A DNA stretch of 64,000 nt from Runella sp. MFBS21 (GTDB lineage Bacteria > Bacteroidota > Bacteroidia > Cytophagales > Spirosomataceae): NCBI RefSeq assembly GCF_029433105.1, contig NZ_JARNTW010000007.1:124001-188000 (forward strand). Reading direction: 5' to 3'. Both the position numbers and the translations under genes were made by a program. Positions 52,910 through 57,049 of the stretch are shown in pieces; within the stretch, counting starts at the first letter, position 1, and every line of letters starts with the position of its first letter. The notes under the pieces are model-generated. The model did not search any database. It was not told the origin of the DNA and worked only from the letters and a program-made list of their open reading frames with translations.

Positions 52910-53371
52910 ATGATAAAGTTGGATATTACAGATAAAGGGATTTTACGCTATCTGCAACAAAACGCACTTTTAACGACTAAAGAACTTGCAGCCCAATTGA
53001 ATTTGTCATACACTCCTGTATATGAGAGGGTTCGTAAGTTGGAGCGGGAAGGAGTTATAAAGAAATATGTTGCTTTGGTTGATAGGGAAGGCATTGGCAA
53101 AAATTTAGTAGCCTTTTGTAATGTTTCTTTGAAAGAGCATAGTCGGGCCAACGGTGAAAAATTTGTATCGGCTGTTATGACATTTGAAGAGGTAATGGAA
53201 TGCTATAATATCTCGGGAGAATATGATTTTATGCTAAAAGTAGTGGTAAATGATATGCCCGAATATCAACGATTTTTAATGGAAAAATTAGGGGCTTTGG
53301 ATAGTATTGGGAATACGCATAGCATTTTTGTGATGAGCGAAATCAAACACGAGACAGCCCTTAAAGTATAA
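52910..53371 (+). CDS. Lrp/AsnC family transcriptional regulator
   Basis: The 153-residue protein has an N-terminal HTH (LDITDKGILRYLQQNALLTT, then LAAQLNLSYTPVYERVRKLE) and a C-terminal RAM ligand-binding domain with ISGEYDFMLKVVVNDM. It matches Lrp/AsnC feast-famine regulators, which bind amino acids and form octamers on DNA. The last codons (VMSEIKHETALKV) and the stop are repeated in the array that follows. The coding sequence thus ends inside the first repeat unit. It appears intact and is not obviously truncated. Confidence 0.93.
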   Translation: MIKLDITDKGILRYLQQNALLTTKELAAQLNLSYTPVYERVRKLEREGVIKKYVALVDREGIGKNLVAFCNVSLKEHSRANGEKFVSAVMTFEEVMECYNISGEYDFMLKVVVNDMPEYQRFLMEKLGALDSIGNTHSIFVMSEIKHETALKV

Positions 53372-54060
53372 TCCTTGTGGCACGGACGTCCCCCGTCCGT
53401 CTTTCTAATACCATAGTTTTGTCTATTATTACGGAGGTGACGTCCGTGCCACAGGGTCATTCAAATTTGTGATGAGCGAGATTTAAAGTATAATCCTTGT
53501 ATCACGGACGTCCCCCGTCCGTCTTTCTAATACCATAGTTTTGTCTATTATTACGGAGGTGACGTCCGTGCCACAGGGTCATTCAAATTTGTGATGAGCG
53601 AGATTTAAAGTATAATCCTTGTATCACGGACGTCCCCCGTCCGTCTTTCTAATACCATAGTTTTGTCTATTATTACGGACGTGACGTCCGTGCCACAGGG
53701 TCATTCAAATTTGTGATGAGCGAAATCAAACACGAGACAGTCCTTAAAGTATAATCCTTGTATCACGGACGTCCCCCGTCCGTCTCTCTAATACTATAGT
53801 TTTGTCTATTATTACGGACGTGACGTCTGTGCCACAGGGTCATTCAAATTTGTGATGAGCGAAATCAAACACGAAACAGCCCTTAAAGTATAATCCTTGT
53901 ATCACGGACGTCCCCCGTCCGTCTCTCTAATACTATAGTTTTGTCTATTATTACGGACGTGACGTCCGTGCCACAGGGTCATTCAAATTTGTGATGAGCG
54001 AGATTTAAAGTATAATCCTTGTATCACGGACGTCACGTCCGTGATACAGGGTTATTCAAG
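53327..54060. repeat. Tandem array of six REP-containing units between lrp and the RAYT gene
   Basis: Units begin at TTTGTGATGAGCGA at 53327, 53466, 53588, 53710, 53849 and 53988. Their lengths are 139, 122, 122, 139, 139 and about 73 (truncated). The long form carries 17 bp more, the lrp-derived AATCAAACACGAGACAGCCC part. Each full unit holds two palindromes built on ACGGACGTC and GACGTCCGT, separated by about 30 bp of CTTTCTAATA-type spacer. The last unit has only one perfect palindrome (54021-54047), and its end supplies the RAYT stop codon. Confidence 0.9.
53376..53453. repeat. First REP pair, MITE-like 78-bp element with 15-bp inverted ends
   Basis: TGTGGCACGGACGTC (53376-53390) is the exact inverse of GACGTCCGTGCCACA (53439-53453). 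It starts 5 bp after the lrp stop codon. In later units the left end reads TGTATCACGG, so the perfect match is lost; this copy may be the ancestral form. Confidence 0.75.
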
Positions 54061-54687
54061 GTATTTGGGGTTTAAATAAGAAAAAGGGTAATCTTCCCAG
54101 TTGTTGATAAGGCCTGCTTTGACGGGGTTGTCTAAAATATACTTATTGATATTATACAATTCTTGACCATTACGTACGACGTGGTCATAACTTTCTTCTT
54201 GCCAAAAAGCCCCTGTTCGATTCAATAGTTTGTTGGCTAACTTAGCAGTATAACTTTTTAGACTGTGCATGATTCTATAGAGGGGTTTTGGGTACTCATA
54301 AGTGTCAATAACCAAATGAAAGTGATTGGGCATTAGGGTATAACAAACGAGTTCATAAGATTTCTTATCCCAAAAATGCAATGCTTCTACAACAATTTGA
54401 GCAATTTCCGGCTGTTTGAGCCATTGTGGATCATTTTGATTTTGGTCTAAGTATTTATCCCAATTGGCAAAATGGCGTTTGTGTAGATTTCGTATCGCTA
54501 TTTTCCTTTCTTCTTCGCTTGTAGAAGTAGCTAAAATATGTCTATAAGCTTGTTGTTTTTCTTCTTTTAATCGTTCCAGTACTTCTTTAGGAAGACTGTG
54601 ATGCAACCGTGCGGTCACAAAAAAAGTGCCGTCTTTGGGTTGGAAGTGAGGGAGGTACCGGTAGTATTCGGGTTTGAATTGTTTCAT
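54052..54687 (-). CDS. REP-associated tyrosine transposase (RAYT, IS200/IS605-like Y1 HUH)
   Basis: The 211-residue protein has the HUH metal motif as MPNHFHLVI (near 117-125), with the two His separated by one bulky residue. The catalytic-Tyr region is ESYDHVVRNGQELYNINKYI, and GTFFVTARL opens the first strand, as in the RAYT/TnpA_REP clade. RAYTs are single-copy domesticated transposases thought to cut and spread REP palindromes. Here the gene's 3' end abuts a tandem array of such palindromes, and its stop codon lies inside the last repeat. There are no flanking IS ends, so it does not look like an autonomous insertion sequence. Confidence 0.92.
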   Translation of the reverse strand: MKQFKPEYYRYLPHFQPKDGTFFVTARLHHSLPKEVLERLKEEKQQAYRHILATSTSEEERKIAIRNLHKRHFANWDKYLDQNQNDPQWLKQPEIAQIVVEALHFWDKKSYELVCYTLMPNHFHLVIDTYEYPKPLYRIMHSLKSYTAKLANKLLNRTGAFWQEESYDHVVRNGQELYNINKYILDNPVKAGLINNWEDYPFSYLNPKYLE

Positions 54688-54822
54688 GTCTTCAGGATGT
54701 TAATCTACTGATTACAAGACGGAGTAGGTGTGAGTAAGTCACTTTTGTGAAAAATTTTCAAAAGGAAATTTTAAATTAGGTTGCTTACAGTGGGAGGTTA
54801 GGGTACTCATAGAGGAGGGGTA

Positions 54823-54881
54823 GATGAGTTATTCACGGAGAAGAGATTAGATGAATTATTCACGGACGGGCCGTCCGTGCT
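54823..54881. repeat. Solo REP palindrome with flanking direct repeat
   Basis: CACGGACGG (54861-54869) and CCGTCCGTG (54871-54879) form a perfect 9-bp palindrome with one central base. It is the core of the array repeats. A GATGAGTTATTCACGGA-like sequence occurs near 54824 and again, with one change, near 54850, so the site seems to have duplicated partly. It lies in the 271-bp gap before the next gene. Confidence 0.6.
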
Positions 54882-54958
54882 ACAGAATGTCGCAATTTTA
54901 CAATCTTGAGAAGTGGAAGGAAAGTAGTTTTGAATCGTAAATCAAAACTTTTACGAAG

Positions 54959-55735
54959 ATGCAAAAACTACTTTTTTTACTGATATTAATTGGGTCATTT
55001 GGGTTTGTAAGTGATGAATCAGTAAACAGTATCAATGGTGCTTTTAGATTGAGTCAACTGAAATATCAGAATGATAAAGATTGGGTGGTGGCCGACGAAC
55101 GATTCAGTATTAAAGTATTTAAGGATGGATATTGGATGGTCGCAAAACTTAAAAAAGGAAATAAAGAGTTTGGAGGCATGGGTGGTGGACCTTATACTCT
55201 CAAAGATGGTAAGTATAACGAACACAAAGATTTTTATTCTTGGGATTCTACTGGTGTGGGAAATACGGTGGCATATGATTACAAAATGTCTGTAAATGAA
55301 TTTAAACAGTCGGGTAAAATAAATACAGCTAAATATCCAAACTATGAAATAAATGAAATTTTTGAGCGAGTAAAGGTAGATGAACCTCTGAAAAATGAGG
55401 GCTTAGAGGGAGTTTGGCTAATGCAAGAGGGATATTGGGGAGGAACAAGCCGCTTTGGAGAAGGTAAATATCAAGGTTTTGTGATGATGAAAATATACGC
55501 ATATCCTTATACAGTTTATGCTTATTATGATCGTGTTAATAAAAAATTTGATGGAGGTGGAGTTTGCCGTTATCAATTTGACGGTAAAACCTTAACTGAA
55601 ACTAATGAATTGTGGTCTTGGGATATGAGTCGTCGTGGTAAGAGTGAAACTCATAAGATTACATTCAAAAATGGAAAACTTATCCAAGAAGGGTGGGAGG
55701 GTAAGTTGAGAGAGGTTTTTGTTAAAGCAAAGTAG
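54959..55735 (+). CDS. Exported protein of unknown function with two similar halves
   Basis: The 258-residue protein starts with a signal peptide (MQKLLFLLILIGSFGFVS). The sequence falls in two similar parts, one opening INGAFRLSQLKYQNDKDW and the other LEGVWLMQEGYWGGTSRFG, each followed by similar beta-strand patterns (FKDGYWMVAKLKKG and MKIYAYPYTVYAYYD) and a WSWD or YSWDS segment. This suggests two lipocalin-like beta-barrel lobes from an internal duplication. The function is unknown. No operon partner is obvious; the DinB-like gene begins 117 nt later. Confidence 0.7.
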   Translation: MQKLLFLLILIGSFGFVSDESVNSINGAFRLSQLKYQNDKDWVVADERFSIKVFKDGYWMVAKLKKGNKEFGGMGGGPYTLKDGKYNEHKDFYSWDSTGVGNTVAYDYKMSVNEFKQSGKINTAKYPNYEINEIFERVKVDEPLKNEGLEGVWLMQEGYWGGTSRFGEGKYQGFVMMKIYAYPYTVYAYYDRVNKKFDGGGVCRYQFDGKTLTETNELWSWDMSRRGKSETHKITFKNGKLIQEGWEGKLREVFVKAK

Positions 55736-55852
55736 TGAAACTTTATCATTTTTGAGATTTTAATCTTGATTGGGTAGGACTAAAATGCCGCATTTTTACA
55801 ATAATTTTCTTCAATATGAGAATAATTTTGTCATAACAAACTGTGATATTCC

Positions 55853-56452
55853 ATGAAACCTAAGTTATTATTTTTCTTGTATTTGGCATTGCTGTGGAAA
55901 GGAGGGAATGCCCAAAAGACATGGTCTACTGAGGAAAAGGCCTCATTGGTGAAACAATATATACGTACAAAAACGGAAGTTAATTCTGAAACAGCTAGTT
56001 TGACTCCTGCTCAGTGGAATTTTAAAGAAGGCCCTGCTCAATGGAATATTGCGCAAGTGATTGAACACTTAAATATGTGGTCACTTCTGACTCAGCATGA
56101 TGCTCGGTATGTGGTTATGTTGGGCGAAAATCCAGAGTTGTCGAATATGGTTGCTTCTGATAGTGTAAATACTTCTTTTATTTATGAAACAAATCCACAT
56201 GTGTCTCCTGACCATACAATCCCAATGGGGCTAGTTAAAGATGAGGCTAATCTGAAAATTTTCAATAGCAAATATGACGAAATTATTATGGCGATTGAAA
56301 AATCAAAGCTGAACTTTAGAATGTTTGTTAGACCGGGCGTTAACGATAGACATAGGGACTTGGCTCAGATTTATATCGTCCATTATGGGCATGTGGATAG
56401 GCATTTGAGACAGATTAGAAGGATTAAGGCTAATCCTAATTTTCCTCAATGA
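55853..56452 (+). CDS. DinB-like four-helix protein with signal peptide
   Basis: The 199-residue protein has a signal peptide (MKPKLLFFLYLALLWKGGNAQ) and a DinB/YfiT-like helical bundle. Two of the three metal-binding His positions can be seen, in QWNIAQVIEHLNMW and in QIYIVHYGHVDRHLRQIRRI. DinB superfamily proteins include metal-dependent hydrolases and thiol transferases, but most are uncharacterised. The exported location is unusual for the group and suggests a periplasmic role. Confidence 0.8.
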   Translation: MKPKLLFFLYLALLWKGGNAQKTWSTEEKASLVKQYIRTKTEVNSETASLTPAQWNFKEGPAQWNIAQVIEHLNMWSLLTQHDARYVVMLGENPELSNMVASDSVNTSFIYETNPHVSPDHTIPMGLVKDEANLKIFNSKYDEIIMAIEKSKLNFRMFVRPGVNDRHRDLAQIYIVHYGHVDRHLRQIRRIKANPNFPQ

Positions 56453-56487
56453 TTCATTCATTTCTATAAATATGGGGTGCTTTTTAT

Positions 56488-56597
56488 TTTATCCTTACGG
56501 ACGGGGCTTTTATTTGACTTATACTACTTTATCCTTACGGACGGGAGTTTTATTTGATTTAACTACTTTATCCTTACGGACGGGACGTCCGTACCAC
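56488..56597. repeat. Three short direct repeats ending in a REP palindrome, next to the following start codon
   Basis: TTTATCCTTACGGACGGG occurs at 56488, 56528 and 56567 with a 39-40 bp period. The last copy closes into a perfect palindrome, TACGGACG (56575-56582) with CGTCCGTA (56586-56593), and ends 10 nt before the ATG at 56603. It shares the ACGGACG core with the RAYT array. Confidence 0.65.
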
Positions 56598-56602
56598 AAA
56601 CA

Positions 56603-57049
56603 ATGGAAACTACAAAAATATCATCGTCGATTGCTGAATTGACCAGAAAAGGTACGTGTGTGGAGTTTTTCTCTGCTTATCAAGAACTTGATACAAATCG
56701 CATGATTAGTCTTGCTACCCCTGACGCTACTGTATGGTTCGAACCACTGGGAGAAGGCGGAAAAGGCTTATTTAAAGAGTTTGGTAAGGCTGTTTGGGAA
56801 TTGTTGATGGATTGTTTTCCTGATATCGACAATACCATAGATAGTATGTATGCCGAAGGAGACTCAATCATTTGTAAGGTTGTGATTTTCGGAACCCAAG
56901 AAAAAGAGTTTATGGGGCTTCCAAGCAAAGGATTGAAGTTTAATAGTGAGCATATTTTTGTGTTCAAATTTGACGAAAATGACAAAATTACATCTCTTAC
57001 TATCAATTGGAATCACGAGAGTTTTGTAGCTCAACTTAGTGGTAATTAA
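56603..57049 (+). CDS. NTF2-like / SnoaL-like fold protein
   Basis: The 148-residue protein has the SnoaL-like pattern: a helical start (VEFFSAYQELDTNRMISLA), then TPDATVWFEPLGEGGKG, MYAEGDSIICKVVIFGTQ and a final FKFDENDKITSLTINWNHES. There is no signal peptide. The function is unknown; the family contains isomerases and epoxide hydrolases. The AraC-type gene 84 nt downstream could be its regulator. A REP palindrome ends just before its start and covers the usual ribosome-binding position, which may affect its translation. Confidence 0.72.
   Translation: METTKISSSIAELTRKGTCVEFFSAYQELDTNRMISLATPDATVWFEPLGEGGKGLFKEFGKAVWELLMDCFPDIDNTIDSMYAEGDSIICKVVIFGTQEKEFMGLPSKGLKFNSEHIFVFKFDENDKITSLTINWNHESFVAQLSGN

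Follow-up and report, generated by a model that had tools for sequence, protein, structure and literature searches.

We analysed a 64,000-nucleotide (nt) stretch of the Runella sp. MFBS21 genome (hereafter the window; contig NZ_JARNTW010000007.1, positions 124,001 to 188,000), in which a tandem array fills the spacer between two convergent genes, an lrp gene and the gene of a REP-associated tyrosine transposase (RAYT; REP, repetitive extragenic palindromic sequence). The genome (7.88 Mb, 72 contigs) belongs to a species close to R. zeae, and its closest relative among the genomes compared is R. zeae DSM 19591 (G008), with an Lrp protein 100% identical and a RAYT 91% identical. The lrp gene (52910..53371, plus strand) encodes an Lrp/AsnC-family regulator of 153 amino acids (Pfam AsnC_trans_reg, 1.8e-23) and the RAYT gene (54052..54687, minus strand) a protein of 211 amino acids. 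The identity given to the latter in a preliminary description of this DNA was confirmed: the protein scored 80.1 bits against NCBIfam REP_Tyr_transpos (NF047646), barely above the cut-off of 80, and 31 bits against Pfam Y1_Tnp (cut-off 23), its sole PDB match at E ≤ 0.1 was TnpArep (4er8, E 1.8e-4), and its sequence contains the motifs NHFH and YILDNP of a Y1/HUH domain. The gene is also flanked by REPs, with matches at 54015-54053 and 54858-54889 to a REP covariance model (R1) that we built from 17 hairpins. Compared with TnpA-REP subclass 2.4 (NH[IFV]H, WQ and YIxNNP in the available part of PMC6006769), NHFH and WQ agree and YILDNP is one position off. Matches to this RAYT at E ≤ 1e-20 were found in 2 of 13 Runella genomes and in 5 of the 39 genomes searched overall; a second, weak match in the MFBS21 genome (40% identity over 94 residues, one internal stop) looks like a fragment.

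Tandem Repeats Finder (TRF) placed the array at 53361-54034 (period 122 bp, 5.2 copies, score 902) and also gave an overlapping reading with a period of 139 bp. The tandem array and both unit lengths reported earlier are thus real, but its six head-to-tail units are five full units and a truncated one rather than six equal copies. Copies of the lrp tail begin at 53330, 53469, 53591, 53713, 53852 and 53991, which gives full plus-strand units of successively 139, 122, 122, 139 and 139 bp (53330..53468, 53469..53590, 53591..53712, 53713..53851 and 53852..53990) and a sixth, truncated unit (53991..54059) that completes the filling of the spacer, a copy number that is the figure from a draft assembly of 72 contigs. 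A full unit opens with the last 45 nt of lrp (53327-53371 in the native gene; 28 nt in the 122-bp units), followed by 5 nt, a left REP with its tag, an AT-rich spacer, a right REP ending in CCAC, a few nt, 8 nt from the RAYT 3' end and one A, ahead of the next lrp tail. The earlier account had correctly recognized lrp-derived sequence in every unit, but the tail is full length in only three of six copies (the native gene plus two others, each carrying a single substitution) and has lost 17 nt in the other three; the opposite flank, the end of the RAYT gene, had been missed. Unit 1 combines the native lrp tail with GTGG tags at both ends of its REP pair and a RAYT-end joint, and unit 2 has the 17-nt deletion. 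The left tag is GTAT instead of GTGG in units 2-6, and units 4 and 5 have spacer changes in common. Unit 6 consists of a shortened lrp tail, a single perfect palindrome of 29 nt (54020-54048) in which both REPs have merged, and the RAYT gene end.

The paired palindromes had been read correctly as REP-type: ACGGACN{0,20}GTCCGT has 10 occurrences in the window, where shuffled sequence would be expected to give 0.02, and all five full units hold an opposed REP pair. Inverted REPs in one long hairpin constitute a REPIN (REP doublet forming a hairpin) or BIME (bacterial interspersed mosaic element), and the locus, with several such REPINs head to tail together with their flanks, is a tandem REPIN/BIME cluster. 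Unit 1, which we folded as single-stranded DNA, gives a strong hairpin with an outer stem of 14 bp (z = -8.1 for the plus and -7.5 for the minus strand). Unit 1, position 54862 and R. zeae all show a GTRG foot (GTGG or GTAG), the tag of GTAG-type REPs, and a distance of 4-5 nt separates the REPIN from either convergent stop codon. In the fused terminal palindrome the arms are GTAT/ATAC, and in its R. zeae counterpart GTAG/CTAC, matched letters that would be expected from hairpin-templated copying. A scan of 11 loci against Rfam yielded nothing at E ≤ 1.

The joints between units reveal what was amplified. All five read TCATTCAA-A-TTTGTGATGAGCG, within an identical full string, CAGGGTCATTCAAATTTGTGATGAGCG; the first copy of TCATTCAA lies at 53457..53464 (plus strand). 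The native RAYT gene ends in TTATTCAA (54052-54059). Up to CAA, the joint differs from the native RAYT end (CAGGGTTATTCAA, 54047-54059) by a single T-to-C change, and from TTTGTGATG onward it is lrp sequence from 53327. Because the RAYT 3' end is present in every joint, the amplified segment spans both gene ends: it is the entire lrp-RAYT spacer plus both gene tails, with breakpoints 45 nt ahead of the lrp end on the left and 8 nt inside the RAYT gene on the right, neither of them at a REP foot. Moreover, all five joints share the T-to-C change, which is absent from the native RAYT end, and these novel letters indicate one founding tandem duplication.

The local seeding that had been supposed is supported. 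A DNA search of the MFBS21 genome with 53400-54100 at E ≤ 0.001 returned no second site, two further rows falling inside the array, and copies of the lrp tail are missing from the corresponding site in R. zeae. The lrp-RAYT interval of that species instead holds a different array, six copies of a 42-bp unit comprising spacer and most of one REP, suggesting that amplification of the spacer has happened more than once and between different boundaries. Matches to the REP model at E ≤ 0.01 numbered at least 22 in the MFBS21 genome, at least 14 of them at 53371-56603 (the fused palindrome counting twice) and at least 8 at seven other loci, and at least 12 in R. zeae, four of these near its RAYT; all are lower bounds, as scoring covered the best 150 candidates per genome out of the more than 1,000 that a first look gave (116 in a further scan). 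The high, genome-wide copy number that is usual, though not strictly defining, for the GTAG-type REP families in the available part of PMC3733652 was thus not seen, and we did not assign the repeats to a high-copy family because of these matches, at least 22, most lie around lrp-RAYT.

We consider it about 75% probable that the array arose by one tandem duplication of the spacer and both flanks, followed by slippage or unequal exchange. A RAYT with its REPIN would have lain beside lrp, the REPIN between the two convergent stops; a single tandem duplication, with one break in the final 45 nt of lrp and the other in the final 8 nt of the RAYT gene, would have given two head-to-tail spacer copies; and replication slippage or unequal exchange, probably aided by the hairpin-forming REPs, would have added further copies and mixed the unit types. 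We infer both the slippage or exchange process and the triggering role of the hairpins. Repeated local exchange is suggested by the mixed order of 139-, 122-, 122-, 139- and 139-bp units, and the substitutions separating adjacent units (3, 1, 4 and 3 for units 1/2, 2/3, 3/4 and 4/5) and the six non-adjacent pairs (3 to 7) form roughly the pattern that such exchange would give. Also in favour of this origin are the identical joints, the position of the breakpoints away from REP feet, the lack of a second site in the genome search, the differing array of R. zeae, the strong folding of the REPIN and the matched arms of the fused palindrome. The copied gene tails probably have no role, coding or otherwise, and the native Lrp protein is unchanged; the hairpins could possibly serve as putative bidirectional terminators.

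Several observations weigh against duplication followed by slippage or exchange. Unit 3 differs from the adjacent unit 4 by 4 substitutions but from unit 5, one place further on, by 3. The founding joint as it stands offers microhomology of 0-1 nt plus one extra A, rising to 4-5 nt only under the unproven assumption of a later 3-nt deletion. The copy number, being taken from a draft assembly, also counts on this side. Finally, the available part of PMC2817692 judges BIME length differences unlikely to result from recombination or slippage alone and proposes RAYTs as drivers of BIME dynamics.

That proposal favours an origin by RAYT catalysis, in which the HUH enzyme would nick REPs and rejoin the segment or roll it into tandem copies; we regard this as unlikely here. 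RAYTs are expected to cut at REP feet. The unit boundaries lie within lrp and RAYT coding DNA and not at the REP tags, so that the breakpoints differ from these cut sites. A scan of 44 RAYT loci (L052-L095) gave the enzyme some support, in that 10 carry arrays with a REP-type hairpin or REP half within 1.5 kb of the RAYT (L055, L058, L060-L064, L069, L081 and L087), seven of them within L055-L064, a rough count read from a table in which flanks are short or genes cut at many loci. The same scan found no hairpin-bearing array at L052-L054 or at L056, L057 and L059, however, even though L052 and L053 are about as close to the RAYT of the window as several array-bearers. In the two species with a RAYT, 4 of 14 loci had arrays at dispersed REPs, compared with 1 of 22 loci in Runella without one, a difference in the direction expected of RAYT dependence but not significant (P = 0.064), with orthologous loci that are not independent and, after a rough collapse with approximate denominators, P = 0.28. 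Such an array is also present in G009, a species without a RAYT.

Arrays elsewhere in the scan took other forms. The arrays at five loci (L054, L066, L078, L083 and L094) all lacked a hairpin; the frames listed for L066 and L083 are implausibly long, which adds to the roughness of the count. At L058, L060, L061 and L062, which hold distant relatives of the RAYT, REP arrays of 33-81 bp on the 3' side overlap the RAYT stop by 4-6 nt, with TRF unit starts of GTAA at L058 and GTAG or TTGTAG at the other three, where the tag therefore appears to supply the RAYT stop; GTAG termini often provide stop codons according to the available part of PMC3733652. L060 and L062 come from bins labelled Chloroflexi and Anaerolineae, respectively.

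An assembly artefact, through inflation of a shorter array or misjoining of copies, is highly improbable. The 72-contig draft state invites such an explanation, as does an overlap of 9,240 nt between two contigs of the R. zeae assembly, one of which starts within lrp and near the array there; but the units differ by distinctive substitutions and by the 17-nt deletion, and R. zeae is also arrayed at this place. That overlap (L178 3367-12606 with L179 1-9240, 100% identical) accounts for an apparent second lrp in R. zeae, which we rejected as a duplicate gene. Seeding at the lrp stop codon through capture or slippage, as first proposed, agrees with the lrp-derived start of every unit but is the least credible explanation, with next to no chance of being right, because the breakpoints lie 45 nt ahead of the lrp end and in the RAYT gene, leaving the stop codon internal to the unit.

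Nor is a host 3' coding end in a repeat unit as unusual as had been thought. Flanking host DNA within the units of REP/REPIN clusters, some of them beside RAYTs, is described in the available parts of PMC3116915 and PMC3733652, and in two REP families charted in the latter most REPs between convergent genes lie less than 20 bp from both 3' ends; with REPs so near, a longer flank must include gene ends, and a unit of the present kind is to be expected. In Pseudomonas fluorescens SBW25, three REPIN clusters likewise adjoin RAYTs, the largest exceeding 700 bp (PMC3116915, as far as available); that genome has about a thousand REP sequences, however, in contrast to the few copies (a lower-bound count) of the Runella family, and the flanks of the Runella array take in both convergent gene ends. 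Relative to the GTAG-type clusters in the accessible text of PMC3733652, the Runella family has a low copy number, many copies 5' of start codons and a tag of GTGG or GTAG that has decayed to GTAT in units 2-6. E. coli BIME-2 resembles the array in comprising several tandem BIME-1-like units (PMC2817692, in the part available). The Runella unit differs from BIME-2 in including coding 3' ends. We found no description of this locus in the titles and abstract openings of literature on Runella palindromic repeats, on REPINs with stop codons and on BIMEs with tandem duplication. The array is a neat but fairly ordinary example, arrays beside RAYTs being already known, and it reveals no new kind of element. 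Its value is that two sister species show one RAYT-REPIN spacer amplified in two different ways, a simple natural system for asking whether RAYTs or plain replication slippage lie behind REPIN arrays.

The sister species differ in copy number or unit at five places compared, the lrp-RAYT array included. On the 5' side of the RAYT gene, a REP is preceded by a 27-bp unit of flank and half palindrome in about two copies (54821..54889, plus strand; read by eye, TRF reporting none), against 7.9 copies in R. zeae. A second REP-anchored array (56488..56603, plus strand) has 2.5 copies of a 40-bp unit (TRF 56488-56586) against 3.5 in R. zeae and ends in a full REP just ahead of an ATG. An array at a crtI-like gene has 3.3 copies of a 35-bp unit against 4.1 and 2.2 copies of 42- and 78-bp units in the sister species, and one at an enolase-family gene has 9.5 copies against 2.0 in R. 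zeae.

We compared the DNA downstream of lrp in 11 RAYT-less Runella genomes. In four (G012, G002, G009 and G011) the right flank of the window (AAATGTCGCATTTTTACAATC) lies within about 30 nt of the lrp stop, suggesting that the RAYT cassette was either gained in the lineage of the two species or lost in the others; the remaining seven have other DNA after lrp. We also considered insertion of the cassette beside a pre-existing GTRG target. GCYACA or ACCACA is already at this place in three of the four genomes (G012 has GCCATA), but no clean target can be claimed because the small GTGG/TGGC hairpins of G002 and G012 may be remnants. The REP at thyA in R. zeae likewise gave no clean empty site: none of the 11 other genomes that carry thyA has similar upstream DNA.

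REP hairpins ahead of start codons may be more interesting than the array itself. Hairpins with CCACA-like tails stand a few nt before start codons in the window (56572-56603) and at L142, L143, L146, L147, L148, L153, L157, L160, L163 and L168, ahead of genes that we take from their sequence to be dapA, crtI-like, thyA and a glycosyltransferase. Across 36 fetched loci, leaving aside the window's own matches, 30 of 38 REP matches were followed, within 18 nt of the tail, by an ATG that starts a frame of 60 codons or more, against 6.1% of 20,000 random positions from the same loci, a count to be read with the facts that the REP model was partly built from sequences including the ATG, that orthologues recur (about ten gene families) and that two of the 30 are partner REPs of inverted pairs, whose frames may be chance. 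A conserved functional leader or riboregulator, though conceivable, is not supported as an explanation. The hairpin before the crtI-like gene is present in 6 of 13 Runella genomes, counting two decayed forms (G001 and G004), and absent in 7, and that before the enolase-family gene is absent in four of six genomes with the gene; the start-codon hairpin thus turns over between species.

Tandem copies of flank plus first palindrome half stand in front of a REP at 5 of the 36 loci (L142, L147, L149, L155 and L176). These include a 39-bp array ahead of the presumed enolase-family gene (L147 648-1029; L155 1033-1110) and, in G009, a Runella without this RAYT, a 24-bp half-REP-hairpin array (L176 1141-1236) ahead of a gene that reads like a glycosyltransferase, a name we assume. 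It is conceivable, but we think quite improbable, that REPs in Runella act as local amplification seeds, flank and half or whole palindrome being reiterated as a variable-number repeat at a rate set by RAYT nicking; gene tails and leader DNA beside REPs would then be copied routinely, and repeats before start codons could tune expression. Other short inverted repeats (GGTTT-ctca-AAACC type) were seen by eye upstream of the crtI-like gene, at the position of the REP, in four Runella genomes that lack the REP before this gene (L219, L220, L221 and L223). In both sister species, a REP palindrome lies inside the apparent open frame of what we take, by its motif, to be a TatD-type gene (L145 and L151).
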